From positions 1,521,628-1,585,627 of the forward strand of contig NZ_CP116619.1 of the NCBI RefSeq assembly GCF_030409055.1: DNA of 64,000 nt, given 5' to 3'. Positions 26,559-35,060 of this stretch are shown one piece after another. Numbering within the stretch: the stretch's first letter is position 1; every line of letters starts with the position of its first letter. The stretch is from Trichocoleus desertorum NBK24 (GTDB lineage Bacteria > Cyanobacteriota > Cyanobacteriia > FACHB-46). Made by a program: the position numbers and the translations under genes. The notes under the pieces are model-generated. The model saw only the letters and a list, made by a program, of their open reading frames with translations. It was not told the DNA's origin and ran no database searches.

Positions 26559-27416
26559 GGTTTATTTTTCGATCTCACTCTTTTGGGTGATATTCGATCC
26601 CTCTTTGGCTAGATGGCTGGAGAAGGCGATCGCGAAACACTAAGAACATCGGTAGTGAAAATATATCAATTGATATTCTCAACTACTGGACGCTAAGTAT
26701 TGAATAGTTTCTAGAACGTTTCTGAAGCTCATTTTTCTAGTTATAAAGTCAATCTTTAGGCCTAAAGCTAGAGCTTGATTGTGTTTTTAAATACCGCAAC
26801 GCCTCAGTGGTTTCACTAAAACATAATGGCTTACCTAGCTATTTCATTAGTTATTTAAACTACAGTTAGTACTAATAAAAATCCCCGCATTAATAGAGTA
26901 CTAATTTTTACAGAATTGTATTTTTTATTAAAAGCATTATAAGGTCAGAACTAGCCTGAGATTCTTTACTAGGGGCTGTTCTGGAAGATAATTATATTTG
27001 TATTTCATTTAGCTCTAGTTTTATTTCATATTCATAAATTCATACTTCCTTTAAGAATTACTCCTTGCACTTTACAGGCTCTATACGAAAGTTTACAGGC
27101 ATCTCTACTAGAGTTTGTAAGTAGCAAACCTTCTATTCCGTAATTATCCTGTAGTCCAAATTCCAAAAGTCAAACGAATCAGGTTAGCAACAACAATGTT
27201 CCTGATTGAAGCTTGATCAAATCTCAAGTAAACACCCTTAGGTTTAGCTGCATGTTTCTGCTGTTTAATGATGTGTTTGCCTAATCTCAGAACCCAAAAA
27301 AGCCTCTATTGATTTGTGTTTAGGCTACTTGCAGACAACCTGAATCCTCACACTCAGGGCTCCTCGGTAGTCATTTGCTCACCCAGTCTTGCCCTTTCGT
27401 CACTCAAAAAGCCTCC
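26559..27416. other. Long AT-rich noncoding region upstream of the exopolysaccharide locus
   Basis: 858 bases without a supported ORF, rich in A/T runs. No tRNA or clear terminator with T-run was found. Given its place before the Alg44-like gene it may hold an extended regulatory region or a small RNA; nothing specific can be named. Confidence 0.5.
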
Positions 27417-28721
27417 ATGGTAAAAACCCCAACTAAGCCCCTTGGCCTCCAAGAGTTCGTTGCAGTTCCTCCTGATGCCGATTACAGGTTGCCTGATTTT
27501 CAGAAAAAGCGGATTTGGCAAAGGTTACTTGTCGGGGCAGCATGCCTGGGGTTAGGAGCCACGGCGATCGCCTTTGGCCTGTCCTCAGTTACCTATCGCC
27601 TCACCCACGCCACGGTAGATGGTGGCCTGATCAGCGGTCGGACAGTGCGATTGCGGGCTCCCATTGATGGCAAAATCAAAGCGTTTTACGCTCGTCCAGG
27701 TGCCCCAGTTAAGTCAGGCCAAGTTTTGGCTCGCCTAGAAAGCACCGCCCAGGTAGAGCAGAATCTGTTGCAGTTGCAAGGTGAAGTGCAAACTAAAACA
27801 GCACAATTGGTCGCTGCCAAGCAATCCTTAGCCTTTTTGCAGCAGCAGCTAGGCAGTTTAGAAATTCAAGACAAGACCTTGCAGACAGTCAACACAGGGC
27901 TTTCGGCAAGAGAAGTCACCCATCAGCAAGCTGCGGTTGAGGCAGCGATGGCTAAGGAAAAAGCTGCTCGCCTAGACTACCAGCGCTACCAGCAGTTATT
28001 GGGAGAAGGCGCGATTTCTCGCCAGAAAGTAGAGCAGCTGGAGTTCGTCTGGAAAGCGGCTGAGGCAGAAGTCAAGCAAGCTCAGGCTGAGTTGTCTTCA
28101 GCTCAAGCCTCCTTGAGTGCTTTGCAAGACGGAGTAGCACTGACCCCAGGGGCAACTTTAGCTGACCAACGGATGAACTTGATGCGTAGCGTTCAAGGCC
28201 AAGCGACTCAAATCGAAACGCTCGAAGCTGAGTTGGACAGTAGCCAAAAACAACTGAAAAAAGCCCAAGCTGAGTATAGCGATCGCCAAGACATTGAAAT
28301 TTCAGCTCCTTTTACGGGCGTGGTCTACAGCACCGAGCATGACCAAGGAGAGCAAGTAAATCGCCCCGACACCCTGATGACCTTGCTGGACTGTAATGAC
28401 CTCTGGGTAGAAACGCTGGTCTCCACTCAACAAGCGAATCAGATTGACAGTAGTAAGCCCGTGAGAGTCCAACTGGCTGGAGCCGAAGATACTTTCGTGG
28501 GCGAGGTCGAGTTGATTGAGGCGATCAACCGAGCTGAATTGGCGAAAGACCAGGCTCAAGCTTTAGTTCCTGCGGTTGCTTCTAATTTAGTCGGTCAACC
28601 TTTATCTAAGGTAACTGTACGAATTCCACCAACCCTTCAACAGTCGCAGACTAACCAATTTTGTGGAGTAGGGCAGTCAGCTCGCATGACCTTTGGCACC
28701 AAGCTGTTTGCCGCTAAGTAG
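27417..28721 (+). CDS. HlyD-type membrane fusion protein, Alg44-like periplasmic subunit
   Basis: The 434-aa protein has a single N-terminal membrane segment (LLVGAACLGLGATAIAFGLS, near 40-60). Next is a lipoyl/barrel-sandwich half (VRLRAPIDGKIKAFYARPGAPV). A long coiled coil follows (about 110-295, rich in Q, E, A). Then come the second lipoyl half (ISAPFTGVVYSTEHDQGEQV) and a beta-barrel. The ATG at 27417 is preferred to a TTG at 27375. It precedes the Alg8-like synthase by 167 bases. In alginate systems Alg44 has this fold plus a c-di-GMP-binding PilZ domain. No PilZ domain is visible here, so regulation must differ. Confidence 0.85.
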   Translation: MVKTPTKPLGLQEFVAVPPDADYRLPDFQKKRIWQRLLVGAACLGLGATAIAFGLSSVTYRLTHATVDGGLISGRTVRLRAPIDGKIKAFYARPGAPVKSGQVLARLESTAQVEQNLLQLQGEVQTKTAQLVAAKQSLAFLQQQLGSLEIQDKTLQTVNTGLSAREVTHQQAAVEAAMAKEKAARLDYQRYQQLLGEGAISRQKVEQLEFVWKAAEAEVKQAQAELSSAQASLSALQDGVALTPGATLADQRMNLMRSVQGQATQIETLEAELDSSQKQLKKAQAEYSDRQDIEISAPFTGVVYSTEHDQGEQVNRPDTLMTLLDCNDLWVETLVSTQQANQIDSSKPVRVQLAGAEDTFVGEVELIEAINRAELAKDQAQALVPAVASNLVGQPLSKVTVRIPPTLQQSQTNQFCGVGQSARMTFGTKLFAAK

Positions 28722-28888: not shown

Positions 28889-31087
28889 ATGAAATCTACT
28901 GCATCAGCTCCCAAAACCCTCAGTGCTCAACTTAATTTGTTGGCATTTCTGTTTTTCCCAGTCCTAGGTCTGACGGGTCTCTATGTCTTACAAAACCCTG
29001 GCAACCTAGCGATTTGGGATGTGTTTGGTCTCATCAGCTTAGGTGCAGTGGGTCTATGGCGCTGGGCTTGGTTTCTCTTCCGCTTGGTGCGATCGCGGGT
29101 TTACCTGCATTGGGTGTTTCCCCGTTGGCGGCGCTGGGCCAATAAGGTTCCGGTCGAGCATTTGCCCCACGTTTGTTTGCTTGTCCCAACTTATAAAGAG
29201 AAGCCTTGGATTACAGAGCGGGTGTTTCGGGCGATCGCGCGAGAAGCCAGAGATATGGCACAACCGATCACCGTTCTGGTCAGTAGCAGCAGCGATGAAG
29301 AAAATGCCTCGGTTGTAGAAATTCTGAAGTCTGAAGATCCAGAACTCAAAACGGTTCGCCTCGTCTTAATGACGCAGAAGGATGGAAAGCGCAAGGCGAT
29401 GGCTGACGGCTTGCGAGAACTAGCCCAGCTAAATCTGCCCACAGATACGATTGTCGCCTTGATGGATGGTGACTCAGAACTCGCTCCAGGCACGCTACGC
29501 CAGTGTCTACCCTTTTTCCGCATGTTCCCCAAGATGGGAGCCTTAACCACCGACGAGTTGCCAGTAGTCGAAGGCTCTTACCTATTTTCGGAGTGGTTTC
29601 ACCTACGATTTGCCCAACGCCACAACCAAATGTGCTCAGACTCGCTCTCACGCAAGGTGATGTGCTTGACAGGGCGATTTTCTCTATTTCGAGCCGAGGC
29701 GGCGTTGCATCCCACCTTTGCCATGCAGCTCGAAAACGACACCCTAGATGACTGGCTGTGGGGACAATTTAAGTTTCTGTCTGGAGACGATAAGAGCACT
29801 TGGTTCTGGCTACTGCAACGCGGCTACGAAATGCTCTACATCCCCGATGTCATTGTTTACTCAATTGAGACGATTTCGGGTTCCTTTATCGATCGCGCCT
29901 ACCAAAATATGCGTCGCTGGTACGGCAACATGCTACGGAACAACAACCGAGCGATCGCCCTTGGGCCTCATCGGATTGGTTGGGCTACTTGGTACAGCTT
30001 GCTCGATCAGCGCATTAGTATTTGGACTTCGCTGATTACCCCCGGTCTTTTACTGATTTCGTTTCTGCAAGGTCATTGGGTCGCGGTTGGCATTATTTCG
30101 TCTTGGATTTGTTTTAGCCGCCCGTTGATGTTGCTACTGATTTTCTGGGGTCGCAGTTCTGAGCTACGTCCGATTCACTTCCCAATTTTGCTGCTGTCTC
30201 AGTGGGCTTCAGCCGTAGTCAAGGTGTGGACGCTAATGAATCTGGCTAAGCAGAATTGGTCGAACCGGGGAAATCAAAGTATTTCGGCAGAAGGCTCTGG
30301 TTTGGAAAGAGTCGCCAAGCTGAGCACTTCTCGATTCCTGCTGGGAGCTCAAGCTTTTAGTTTCATTATTTTCCTCTTATGGTTATCTGGCTCTATTAAC
30401 CCCGTTTGGGATTTGGAAGGCTGGTGGCTTAACCGTCAAGTAGTAGCCCAGCAAATGCCGTTGGAAATTGTGGAAGCGATCGATCGCGGGATAATTCCTA
30501 ACGACAATCAAGATGATTCTGCCGCTTTACAGGCGTTAATTGCTCGTTTGCCCCAATCCAGCCAGGTGCAGATTAATTTGCCAATCGGTGAAATCGATCT
30601 ATTCAAGCCTGTAGAAATCAATCGGGGTGACATTAAGCTCAAGGGCCAAGGCATGTCGCGGACCATTTTGCAGGCTCATTTCGATCGCGAAGCTGGGGAA
30701 GCGGTGCTTTCTATTCAGCCGAAAGGAGAGGGCGATCGCAACACCAAATCTACAGCTCAGCCTGTATCTCACACCGCCAAAGCCGTTGTAGACAAGCTGA
30801 GAAATGTGGAGCTGAGTGGCTTCACGATGCGGCAGATTCTGCCTAAGTCTGCGGTTGTTTCTGAATACGCGATCGATAGTATTTACTTACGACAAGTTGA
30901 GCAAGCCACTGTGAGGAATTTACATCTGGAGCGGAGTGGCCGCAATCCCTTAGTCCTGAACTCAACTCAAGATGTAACGGTGGAATATGTGGCAGTGGAT
31001 GGCAGTTTGAATCGGGGTGAGATTGTCATGCAGGATGCGGTCAATACCCAAACGAAAGGGGTGACTTTGCCGACTTCTTTGTCTTAG
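28889..31087 (+). CDS. Alg8-like processive glycosyltransferase fused to a parallel beta-helix domain
   Basis: The 732-aa protein starts with two membrane segments (residues 10-60). The cytosolic GT2 domain has VCLLVPTYKEKPWI, the metal motif IVALMDGDSELAPG (near 195) and QLENDTLDDWLWG as acceptor-site acid. AYQNMRRWYGNMLRNN is the QxxRW-type motif of processive enzymes. The phrase RRWYGNMLR...DQRISIWTSL closely resembles alginate polymerase Alg8. More membrane segments follow (about 385-500). After the last, residues 530-725 read as a pectate-lyase or AlgG/AlgE-like beta-helix (DDSAALQALIARLP, NVELSGFTMRQI, ATVRNLHLERSGRNPLVL), likely outside the membrane. This fusion is unusual. Confidence 0.85.
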   Translation: MKSTASAPKTLSAQLNLLAFLFFPVLGLTGLYVLQNPGNLAIWDVFGLISLGAVGLWRWAWFLFRLVRSRVYLHWVFPRWRRWANKVPVEHLPHVCLLVPTYKEKPWITERVFRAIAREARDMAQPITVLVSSSSDEENASVVEILKSEDPELKTVRLVLMTQKDGKRKAMADGLRELAQLNLPTDTIVALMDGDSELAPGTLRQCLPFFRMFPKMGALTTDELPVVEGSYLFSEWFHLRFAQRHNQMCSDSLSRKVMCLTGRFSLFRAEAALHPTFAMQLENDTLDDWLWGQFKFLSGDDKSTWFWLLQRGYEMLYIPDVIVYSIETISGSFIDRAYQNMRRWYGNMLRNNNRAIALGPHRIGWATWYSLLDQRISIWTSLITPGLLLISFLQGHWVAVGIISSWICFSRPLMLLLIFWGRSSELRPIHFPILLLSQWASAVVKVWTLMNLAKQNWSNRGNQSISAEGSGLERVAKLSTSRFLLGAQAFSFIIFLLWLSGSINPVWDLEGWWLNRQVVAQQMPLEIVEAIDRGIIPNDNQDDSAALQALIARLPQSSQVQINLPIGEIDLFKPVEINRGDIKLKGQGMSRTILQAHFDREAGEAVLSIQPKGEGDRNTKSTAQPVSHTAKAVVDKLRNVELSGFTMRQILPKSAVVSEYAIDSIYLRQVEQATVRNLHLERSGRNPLVLNSTQDVTVEYVAVDGSLNRGEIVMQDAVNTQTKGVTLPTSLS

Positions 31088-31282: not shown

Positions 31283-32236
31283 CTAGTTTACTGCTGCAAC
31301 GGCAAAGTCAGCGAAGTCTACGTATACGTCTTTGCGTGTGGCCCAGGAGGGGTCGTTGCCGCCAAAGAAGGTGGAGAAGAAGATGCCGTCTATCTTAAGT
31401 TTGTCGGTGGAGCGGAAGGTGAGTCCTTCTTGATTGAGTACTTGTTTGCCATCGAGCCACACGCGGACTTGTCCATCTTTACGACCCGGTTGGTTGAGTA
31501 CAACTTCTTGCTCTAGGCGATGCCAAACTCCCGGCTTAAAGCGCCATTTGCCGCGCCCAATGGAGGTGCCATATTTGTCGCTGGTGGGGAGGTAGGCGTA
31601 CAGTTCTCCTGCACCATTTTTGCGCCACATGAAGCGAGTGGAAAAACCATCCGTGCCGTCGGGAGTATCCCCGCCACTCTTGCTGTCACCGCCAAACAAG
31701 CCTGGAAGTTTCCCTCCCCGGATGTAATCAAAATTGTCTGAGAACCGGACGGAGTAGCTGAGTCGTAATGTATCTCTAGGAGCCAAGTTAAGATCCGCGA
31801 GAAACTGAGCACCACCCAAAGGGGCACGGTACTTGCGAGCAACGGTAGGGCTAGCGGAACGAGCTGGATATTTGACACGCAGCACTTTACTAAACTTTCC
31901 GGTCGGGTCTGAAATAACTTCAATGTTTTCGAGTCCCCAATCCTTTTGTTTACGAGTGCCCCAATGCTGCTGCCAGTCGCCTTCGTCAAAGCGACTAGAC
32001 CAAAGAAGATTGCTAAAGTTTTGGGCAATTTGAGGACTAGTTTGAGCAATATCGATTGGAACAGGGGAGGAATCTACTTTTACCGGATCGAGGAGGGCAC
32101 AGCCGCTCAGCACCAAGAGGGCTGAAACAGTACCGAGGGCGGCGGGTCGCTGGAGAAGTCGTAAAAACGTCAATTGTCGGTGTAGTCGCTGAGCTAGCTG
32201 CTCTGATTTGTGAAGCTGAGACAATTTTAAGTTCAA
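31283..32236 (-). CDS. Polysaccharide lyase family 14-like lipoprotein
   Basis: The protein has about 317 aa. The N-terminus has basic residues, a hydrophobic stretch and the lipobox LVLSGCALL (near 45), so it is a lipoprotein. The rest is a beta-jelly-roll domain with RVKYPARSASP, SYSVRFSDNFDYIRGGKLPG and the catalytic-style FSTRFMWRKNGAGELYAYL. IDGIFFSTFFGGNDPSWA is characteristic of alginate/glucuronan lyases of family PL14. The start is a TTG; the true start may lie slightly downstream. It is convergent with the Alg8-like synthase, so it probably trims the same polymer outside the cell or in the periplasm (inference). Confidence 0.8.
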   Translation of the reverse strand: MNLKLSQLHKSEQLAQRLHRQLTFLRLLQRPAALGTVSALLVLSGCALLDPVKVDSSPVPIDIAQTSPQIAQNFSNLLWSSRFDEGDWQQHWGTRKQKDWGLENIEVISDPTGKFSKVLRVKYPARSASPTVARKYRAPLGGAQFLADLNLAPRDTLRLSYSVRFSDNFDYIRGGKLPGLFGGDSKSGGDTPDGTDGFSTRFMWRKNGAGELYAYLPTSDKYGTSIGRGKWRFKPGVWHRLEQEVVLNQPGRKDGQVRVWLDGKQVLNQEGLTFRSTDKLKIDGIFFSTFFGGNDPSWATRKDVYVDFADFAVAAVN

Positions 32237-33488: not shown

Positions 33489-35060
33489 ATGCTCCAATTT
33501 AGTTCTAAGAAGCACGAGTACTTAACGGCACTACTCGTCTTTTTTACATTTTGGTTTTCACTATTTATAATGAGTGGCTCGTTGTTTTCAGGCTATCACT
33601 TCACTGATGACCATGAGATTACAGCAATTCACTATGACTTTGTGCATCATCACTCTAATTTATTTGAAATTATAAAGCAGTGGCTTTTAGCAGATCACCT
33701 ATCTGGGAGATTTCGGCCTTTTTATTATGCTCATCGTATTGTTGAGACCAGGCTTTTTGGAGTCAACCTTTTCCTATGGTCAATATATACAGGGATGCTA
33801 GCTGTCCTGACAACTTTTTTTCTGTTTATCTTCGGAAAATTCTTAAATCTCTCATTTTCAGCAGCAATTGCATTGGCTTTTCTAACTACTTTTGGTGCTC
33901 AGTCTGCAATTTGGTGGCAGCTTGGACCCGCCGAAACAGTTGGGTTATTTTTATTGTCATCATCTCTATTTTTTGCGGGATTAAGTGCGACCACGAACCA
34001 ACACAAAAGATTTTGTCAAAGTGGTTTTGTAATTTCTACTGTTTTAATGTCTTTATGTAAGGAAAGTTTAGTAGTAGCCATTCCAGCGATCGCTTTCATT
34101 CAGGTCTGGCTATCTTATAGGAACAGTGCTAAAACTTGGCGACGCGCCATCCAAGATAATCAGTTGTCCCTCGCGGTGCTGGGCTTGGTTGGCTTGACAG
34201 AGCTGTTTTTTATTAAATACTTTTTAGGACTCAGGGGGACTGGATACGCTGGTGTTGAGAAAACAGACTTCTCCAAGCTCTCGCTAGTAGCCAAAACACT
34301 GAATCATTATGGTTCGGGATGGATCATTTTACTTGCAATTGCTTTGATTCTGATTGCTAACCGTAAATCTAATCTTCAGCAATCTACTTGGTCATTACTG
34401 AAAACAGCTTATGCTCCGATTTTATTATTCATTCTTCTAGTAGTACCACAGCTAGTTGTTTATGCAAAATCTGGTATTTCTCAACGCTATTTACTGCCCG
34501 CAGTTCTTGGTTATTCGCTCTTAATTGCATTGCTCTATCAGCATTTTCAAAATAATCACAAAAGCCTAAGTGATATTGTATTAGGACTGATCACAGTCAG
34601 CCTTGCGATCAATCTTAGCTTGGCATGGAATGCTGCTCGTATATTTGCTGCGGAAGGCCAATCCACCCAAGTGCTTCTAGAAACAATTGAGAAAAACACT
34701 GAAATCAATGAGCCAATCTTACTAATTACTCATCCTTTGGCATATGTAGAATGGAATTTATCAATTAAGCGGTATCTCAATTACATTTCTAAGCGCAATA
34801 ACTTATATCTAGGAATCTACAGCCCCCGAAAAGATCAATACTTTACGAAGGCAGTAGAAATATACGAACAAAAAACGCTAGAGCAGCTCTCAAACAAAGA
34901 CCAGATCCAGTGCATCATTGTCTTTCCTGAGTTAAATAATGCTTTTTTGAGGCGTTCAGCTGACTGGTTTGTCAAAACGAACTATCAAGCTTATGCCTTT
35001 GGAAATTTCAACCGTAATTTGAATCCCAACTCTGAAATCCATCTTTACTGCAAAAAGTAG
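33489..35060 (+). CDS. Polytopic membrane protein, possible GT-C glycosyltransferase
   Basis: The 523-aa protein has about ten hydrophobic segments spread over residues 15-390, then a soluble C-terminal domain of about 130 residues. The first extracytoplasmic loop contains FTDDHEITAIHYDF and SGRFRPFYYAHRIVE. Acidic residues in loop 1 and an RFRP-type motif are seen in membrane GT-C transferases that use lipid-linked sugars, but no signature is decisive. The gene is clearly AT-richer than tatC and sbcC on either side, a sign of horizontal transfer. Function unknown. Confidence 0.6.
   Translation: MLQFSSKKHEYLTALLVFFTFWFSLFIMSGSLFSGYHFTDDHEITAIHYDFVHHHSNLFEIIKQWLLADHLSGRFRPFYYAHRIVETRLFGVNLFLWSIYTGMLAVLTTFFLFIFGKFLNLSFSAAIALAFLTTFGAQSAIWWQLGPAETVGLFLLSSSLFFAGLSATTNQHKRFCQSGFVISTVLMSLCKESLVVAIPAIAFIQVWLSYRNSAKTWRRAIQDNQLSLAVLGLVGLTELFFIKYFLGLRGTGYAGVEKTDFSKLSLVAKTLNHYGSGWIILLAIALILIANRKSNLQQSTWSLLKTAYAPILLFILLVVPQLVVYAKSGISQRYLLPAVLGYSLLIALLYQHFQNNHKSLSDIVLGLITVSLAINLSLAWNAARIFAAEGQSTQVLLETIEKNTEINEPILLITHPLAYVEWNLSIKRYLNYISKRNNLYLGIYSPRKDQYFTKAVEIYEQKTLEQLSNKDQIQCIIVFPELNNAFLRRSADWFVKTNYQAYAFGNFNRNLNPNSEIHLYCKK

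Follow-up and report, generated by a model that had tools for sequence, protein, structure and literature searches.

In the alginate system of Pseudomonas and Azotobacter, an Alg8-type GT2 synthase is accompanied by the HlyD-type adaptor Alg44, the beta-helix protein AlgG, a separate polyuronate lyase encoded in the locus (AlgL) and an AlgD-type dehydrogenase. Alg44 carries a PilZ domain that binds c-di-GMP. AlgG in Pseudomonas belongs to a scaffold by which nascent alginate is protected from AlgL, and alginate yield is no lower when the catalytic residues of AlgG are disabled (PMC3815931). The scaffold model is itself debated, since AlgG was not found in a complex with AlgK in P. aeruginosa (PMC9734138). 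In cyanobacteria, a cellulose system described from Thermosynechococcus and others, XcsA–XcsB–XcsC, consists of a GT2 synthase, an HlyD-like adaptor and a cutting enzyme, with a proposed TolC exit (PMC12430437). A 2015 survey reported Alg8/BcsA-like synthases throughout the cyanobacteria. It found the Alg44 architecture nowhere and known partners for modification or export almost nowhere, and its conclusion was that other proteins must take their place (PMC4594306).

The locus described here lies in a stretch of 64,000 nucleotides (the window) of the chromosome of Trichocoleus desertorum NBK24, a single contig of 5.46 Mb in a genome that is 99.99% complete. It encodes an Alg8-type synthase whose C-terminus continues into a predicted beta-helix domain, with an HlyD-type adaptor and a PL14 polyuronate lyase as neighbours (Table 1). 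The fusion sets the system apart as a novel form of alginate-type synthase system. The Alg8-type GT2, the HlyD-type adaptor, the separate lyase in the locus and the presence of a beta-helix are shared with Pseudomonas and Azotobacter, as is an AlgD-type dehydrogenase in five to six relatives. Here, however, the beta-helix is fused and lacks a catalytic motif, the lyase belongs to PL14, the adaptor has an EAL domain or nothing in place of PilZ, and the genome of the window is without AlgD. AlgK, AlgE, AlgX and AlgI/J/F were not seen among the annotated neighbours of the gene. The plan of synthase, HlyD protein and cutting enzyme is also that of XcsABC, but XcsA belongs to another GT2 subfamily and has PilZ rather than a beta-helix, and its cutting enzyme is an endoglucanase rather than a polyuronate lyase. 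An Xcs-type cellulose synthase was rejected, as there is no PilZ match and PL14 stands in place of the endoglucanase.

Table 1. Positions and supporting observations for the features of the locus. Coordinates are those of the window, except for the EAL-HlyD proteins, which are numbered within the related loci named.
Feature	Position	Strand	Observations
HlyD-type periplasmic adaptor (membrane fusion protein)	27375..28721	+	448 aa as listed, 434 aa from internal ATG; Pfam HlyD_3 1.7e-16, HlyD_D23 6e-16
Alg8-type GT2 synthase with C-terminal beta-helix	28889..31087	+	ATG start, 732 aa
GT2 catalytic domain (residues 93-347)	29165..29929	+	Pfam Glyco_tranf_2_3 E 7e-34; Foldseek and VIA-align matches to hyaluronan and cellulose synthases
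MDGDS motif (residues 192-196)	29462..29476	+	D193-G194-D195-S196 invariant; identical in all variant classes listed
MRRWYGNMLR, equivalent of QxxRW (residues 341-350)	29909..29938	+	R342, R343, W344, G346, N347, L349, R350 invariant
Basic loop QNWSNRG (part of residues 453-461), putative cytosolic gating loop	30245..30271	+	Charge bias
Last membrane helix (residues 472-499)	30302..30385	+	Hydrophobicity peak at 494; helix in model; proteobacterial relatives end just after
Predicted right-handed beta-helix domain (residues about 523-732), putatively periplasmic, non-catalytic by sequence	30455..31084	+	AlphaFold2, Foldseek, VIA-align, motif survey
PNDNQDDSAALQ, N-cap motif (residues 537-548)	30497..30532	+	D539, D542, D543 in 28/28 domains
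PL14 polyuronate lyase, predicted lipoprotein	31283..32236	-	Lipobox LSGC; Polysacc_lyase_14 7.7e-65
EAL-HlyD	L002 4363-6501; L047 5780-7900; L051 5641-7662		N-terminal EAL on adaptor
EAL-HlyD	L063 12230-14503; L071 11067-13256		N-terminal EAL on adaptor

The DGD and QxxRW-type motifs of the GT2 domain sit between membrane helices, as in Alg8-type synthases, and a GDDK segment (residues 299-302) is likewise conserved among relatives. Outside the cyanobacteria, the closest homologues align over their full length with residues 45-500, at 35-40% identity. They come from alphaproteobacterial loci of Salipiger (L022), Jannaschia (L023) and Methyloligella (L006), in which an adjoining nucleotide-sugar dehydrogenase (AlgD), an HlyD or PilZ-HlyD adaptor of Alg44 type, a sugar-phosphate nucleotidyltransferase and an AlgI-like MBOAT acyltransferase are also encoded. 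Loci of this type include a separate beta-helix protein with a weak match to the AlgG model; in L022 and L023 this AlgG-like protein is a gene of its own, and the synthases differ from that of the window in stopping after the last membrane helix. From this kinship and the synteny of the closest homologues, the reading of the synthase as Alg8-like is well supported, with the alphaproteobacterial loci as the yardstick.

The cyanobacterial proteins extend for 150-230 residues beyond the last membrane helix, just after which the proteobacterial relatives end. The fused synthase was found in 30 of the 390 sampled genomes of the class, spread over 21 genera, and one more came from a phylum-wide draw. 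Wherever the C-terminus is complete, in 28 cyanobacterial genomes, the fusion is a single open reading frame; a chance reading frame or mis-joined genes were rejected on these grounds, and the fusion is confirmed as real. No earlier description of it was found in the literature searched (subscription papers lay outside its coverage). Comparison with a sister species gave a dN/dS of 0.047 for the C-terminal part, 0.039 for its distal half and 0.037 for the GT core. The beta-helix part is thus under purifying selection in the genus of the window and is not decaying.

Sequence comparison alone leaves the fold of this C-terminal part unsettled, since its score against the Pfam model Pect-lyase_RHGA_epim (PF12708; residues 530-643) is 19.0 bits and below the cut-off of 27. 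A phmmer search of the part by itself against PDB sequences returned a chance match only, and a profile of its relatives was needed; this matches the RbmB lyase, a phage pectin-lyase-like protein and, weakly, the AlgE6 epimerase, in each case over the N-cap and first coils. An AlphaFold2 model built on 28 homologous domains has beta-helix secondary structure (pLDDT 84.8, pTM 0.79). Foldseek matched the model to right-handed beta-helices, including 4mxn (E 7e-7) and the A-module of AlgE4 (E 1e-6). In VIA-align 4mxn had the best Z (21.9), and the A-modules of AlgE4 and AlgE6, RbmB and the alginate epimerase/lyase 8ja4 had Z of about 17.7-18.9 (AlgE and RbmB over 171-179 residues; AlgE4 over 179 residues at Z 17.9 and 2.3 Å). 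Many beta-helix enzymes reach a similar Z in VIA-align, and assignment to a single beta-helix family from Z alone was rejected. The C-terminal 210 or so residues are predicted with good confidence to form a right-handed beta-helix, and on this basis the initial observation stands confirmed. With AlgE4, AlgE6 and RbmB the domain shares the right-handed helix and the same N-cap; it differs in corresponding to about the first half of their module only, in lacking DPH and in being fused to a synthase. The initial annotation had proposed an Alg8-like polymerase carried in one chain with about 200 residues of beta-helix after the last membrane segment, and the kinship and loci of the synthase, the models of the domain and the abrupt end of the proteobacterial relatives all agree with it.

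The same annotation had placed the domain outside the cytoplasm. The hydrophobicity profile puts the last hydrophobic segment at about residues 484-502. Over 30 relatives, residues 452-483 contain on average 5.8 K+R against 1.3 D+E, while the chain after the last helix is acidic (22.3 D+E, 15.4 K+R). With the GT domain in the cytosol, a basic loop before the last helix and an acidic chain after it would place the domain in the periplasm, which conforms to the positive-inside rule. A full-length model from nine sequences has low confidence over the GT domain and the membrane segments (pLDDT 62), so the topology is read from charge bias and not from the model; by this measure the periplasmic location has support short of proof. 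In cellulose and hyaluronan synthases, an interface helix precedes the gating loop at a matching position, and by analogy the QNWSNRG loop may be the equivalent of their WGTR/FxVTxK gating loop.

The weak full-length model has four long helices past the GT domain (residues 378-394, 397-419, 427-454 and 472-499). If all four crossed the membrane, rather than three, the C-terminus would return to the cytosol; a periplasmic domain thus requires that one of the four be an interface helix. Helix 427-454 is the candidate: a strongly basic loop follows it in every relative, and its position matches that of the interface helix ahead of the gating loop of cellulose and hyaluronan synthases. The domain beyond the last helix is also acidic and has a fold typical of secreted proteins, and a cytosolic position is considered improbable.

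The initial annotation had also suggested that the domain could act on the polymer at the exit of the channel, as a C5-epimerase or lyase. The fold, near to the A-modules of AlgE4 and AlgE6 and to 8ja4 (Z 17.9-18.9), and the adjoining polyuronate lyase gene are consistent with this, but the conserved residues are not. A DPH(D/E) catalytic motif is present in none of the 28 domains, and no conserved set of His, Asp, Lys or Arg was found in their coils. The strongly conserved residues D539, D542, D543, R579 and R591, together with glycines, form the N-cap and first coil, and residues of this kind are common to many beta-helix proteins, unrelated ones included. Of the polar positions after residue 593, R648 and Y700 alone are retained in 60% or more of the 28 domains, and no conserved polar surface was found past the N-cap. 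The distal coils are dispensable, as the members keep anything from 58 to 144 residues after Thr592; five have their C-terminus 58-90 residues after it, most of them before coils that are present in the window protein. Lyase activity would in any case be supplied by the PL14 protein. Modification of the polymer by the domain was rejected on the absent motif and is very improbable; by sequence, the domain would be an epimerase fold without catalytic residues. The curated AlgG model NF038177 has no match in the window protein or elsewhere in its genome, and a narrow first-pass search for AlgG in this and sister genomes found none. Of the initial annotation, the fusion and the beta-helix fold are confirmed and the Alg8 kinship and the extracytoplasmic location are supported, but polymer modification is not. 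With no AlgD found in the genome of the window, alginate is no more than a possible product in this species.

Loss or shortening of the distal coils in several lineages would also be expected of a remnant, now without function, of a once complete fused epimerase. Against such decay, dN/dS between the window and its sister species is 0.04 even in the distal half, the N-cap residues are kept in 28/28 domains, and no member is without the domain altogether. A decaying remnant was rejected on the dN/dS and is quite improbable.

The HlyD adaptor corresponds to XcsB and to the periplasmic portion of Alg44, and it is encoded upstream of the synthase in every one of the 28 loci with upstream sequence. 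The PL14 protein, which scores 219 bits against PF21294 (cut-off 27), is the counterpart of AlgL and XcsC. Its relatives with demonstrated alginate lyase activity include 5gmt from Aplysia (2e-33) and the chlorovirus enzyme vAL-1 (3a0n; 2e-7). A PL14 gene is present in 25 of the 30 loci and adjoins the synthase in 24 genomes. Genome-wide, PL14 accompanies the synthase in 29 of 30 genomes, whereas only 8 of the 360 genomes that lack the synthase have it (Fisher p 2e-35, uncorrected for kinship); a congener (G398) has neither. HlyD adaptor, synthase and PL14 lyase form a conserved module. For one family of synthases, the module supplies partners of the kind that the 2015 survey had called for: HlyD or EAL-HlyD, PL14 and the fused beta-helix. 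Several of the genomes with PL14 and no fused synthase (G011, G533, G562, G596, G615, G392, G414 and G070) are incomplete, and the remainder may put PL14 to a different use. Further along the window, a 523-aa membrane protein without Pfam or NCBIfam match is encoded at 33489-35060 (+).

In the proposed mechanism, the Alg8-type GT2 would build the chain from a nucleotide-sugar on the cytosolic side and thread it through its own membrane helices. At the exit, the groove of the periplasmic beta-helix may bind the chain as it emerges and leave it unmodified, pass it to the HlyD adaptor and then to a TolC-type outer-membrane channel, and shield it from PL14, the periplasmic lyase encoded next door, which would clear stray chain. 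The epimerase-independent role of AlgG would in this way be built into the synthase. Such a role fits because a non-catalytic beta-helix is tethered at the synthase exit with a polyuronate lyase as its constant companion. On the other side, the domain is shorter than AlgG or the AlgE A-modules, and a long sugar-binding groove is doubtful in the few members whose 58-90 residues after Thr592 leave few coils. A synthase-dependent system for an acidic, polyuronate-type homopolymer, with the fused beta-helix as a non-catalytic scaffold or shield for the chain, is given about an even chance.

The main rival is that the beta-helix leaves the polymer untouched and is a docking module, fixing HlyD, and with it the outer-membrane channel, over the exit. 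The linkage of HlyD in 28/28 loci agrees with this, as does the pattern of conservation: the N-cap and first coils near the membrane are the most conserved and the distal coils erode, as if the membrane-proximal part sufficed. However, proteobacterial Alg8-type synthases (L006) pair with an HlyD-type Alg44 without any such domain, and the N-cap residues are kept in unrelated beta-helix proteins, so that their conservation may be structural only. Docking alone is considered rather unlikely. If the domain is instead a non-catalytic scaffold, the disputed structural role of AlgG would become directly testable, because nature has here already separated scaffold from catalysis and holds the scaffold at the synthase exit.

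In five loci the HlyD adaptor begins with an EAL domain, at the place where Alg44 has PilZ. Judged by eye from an alignment, these EAL-HlyD proteins seem to have other residues where canonical EAL phosphodiesterases have their EGVE segment, which suggests that they are sensors, as putative c-di-GMP receptors, rather than enzymes. The adaptor of the window consists of HlyD only, without EAL or PilZ, and so differs from the PilZ-plus-HlyD make-up of Alg44.

An AlgD-type GDP-mannose dehydrogenase is linked to the fused synthase in five loci (L061, L062, L063, L048 and L071), and a sixth genome carries one elsewhere (G597, contig 232). The L011/L071 dehydrogenase scores 395 bits with the Pseudomonas GDP-mannose dehydrogenase and 231 with the next structure. 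In the genome of the window, 99.99% complete, no AlgD-type enzyme was found, only UDP-glucose dehydrogenase, and the polymer therefore need not be mannuronan. A tree built from the GT region places the window protein in an AlgD-less clade of 20 (support 82/99), with the AlgD-bearing members outside. Mannuronan made from GDP-ManA is plausible for part of the family and would be no more than a possibility for the species of the window. Loss of AlgD in this clade may mean that the family has changed its donor sugar. PL14 enzymes are known for alginate and for glucuronan, and glucuronan is a possibility for the polymer of the clade to which the window belongs. The fuller picture, of a polyuronate machine with its own scaffold, in which EAL-HlyD replaces Alg44 in part and the AlgD-less clade makes glucuronan from UDP-glucuronate, is unlikely as a whole; were it true, the locus would be a candidate natural glucuronan synthase. 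As of 2023, a paper still listed the genes that direct glucuronan synthesis as unknown (PMC10180729). Outside the cyanobacteria, a PL14-like fragment is present at L006 12263-12883, near the Alg8/Alg44/AlgD locus of the Methyloligella MAG.
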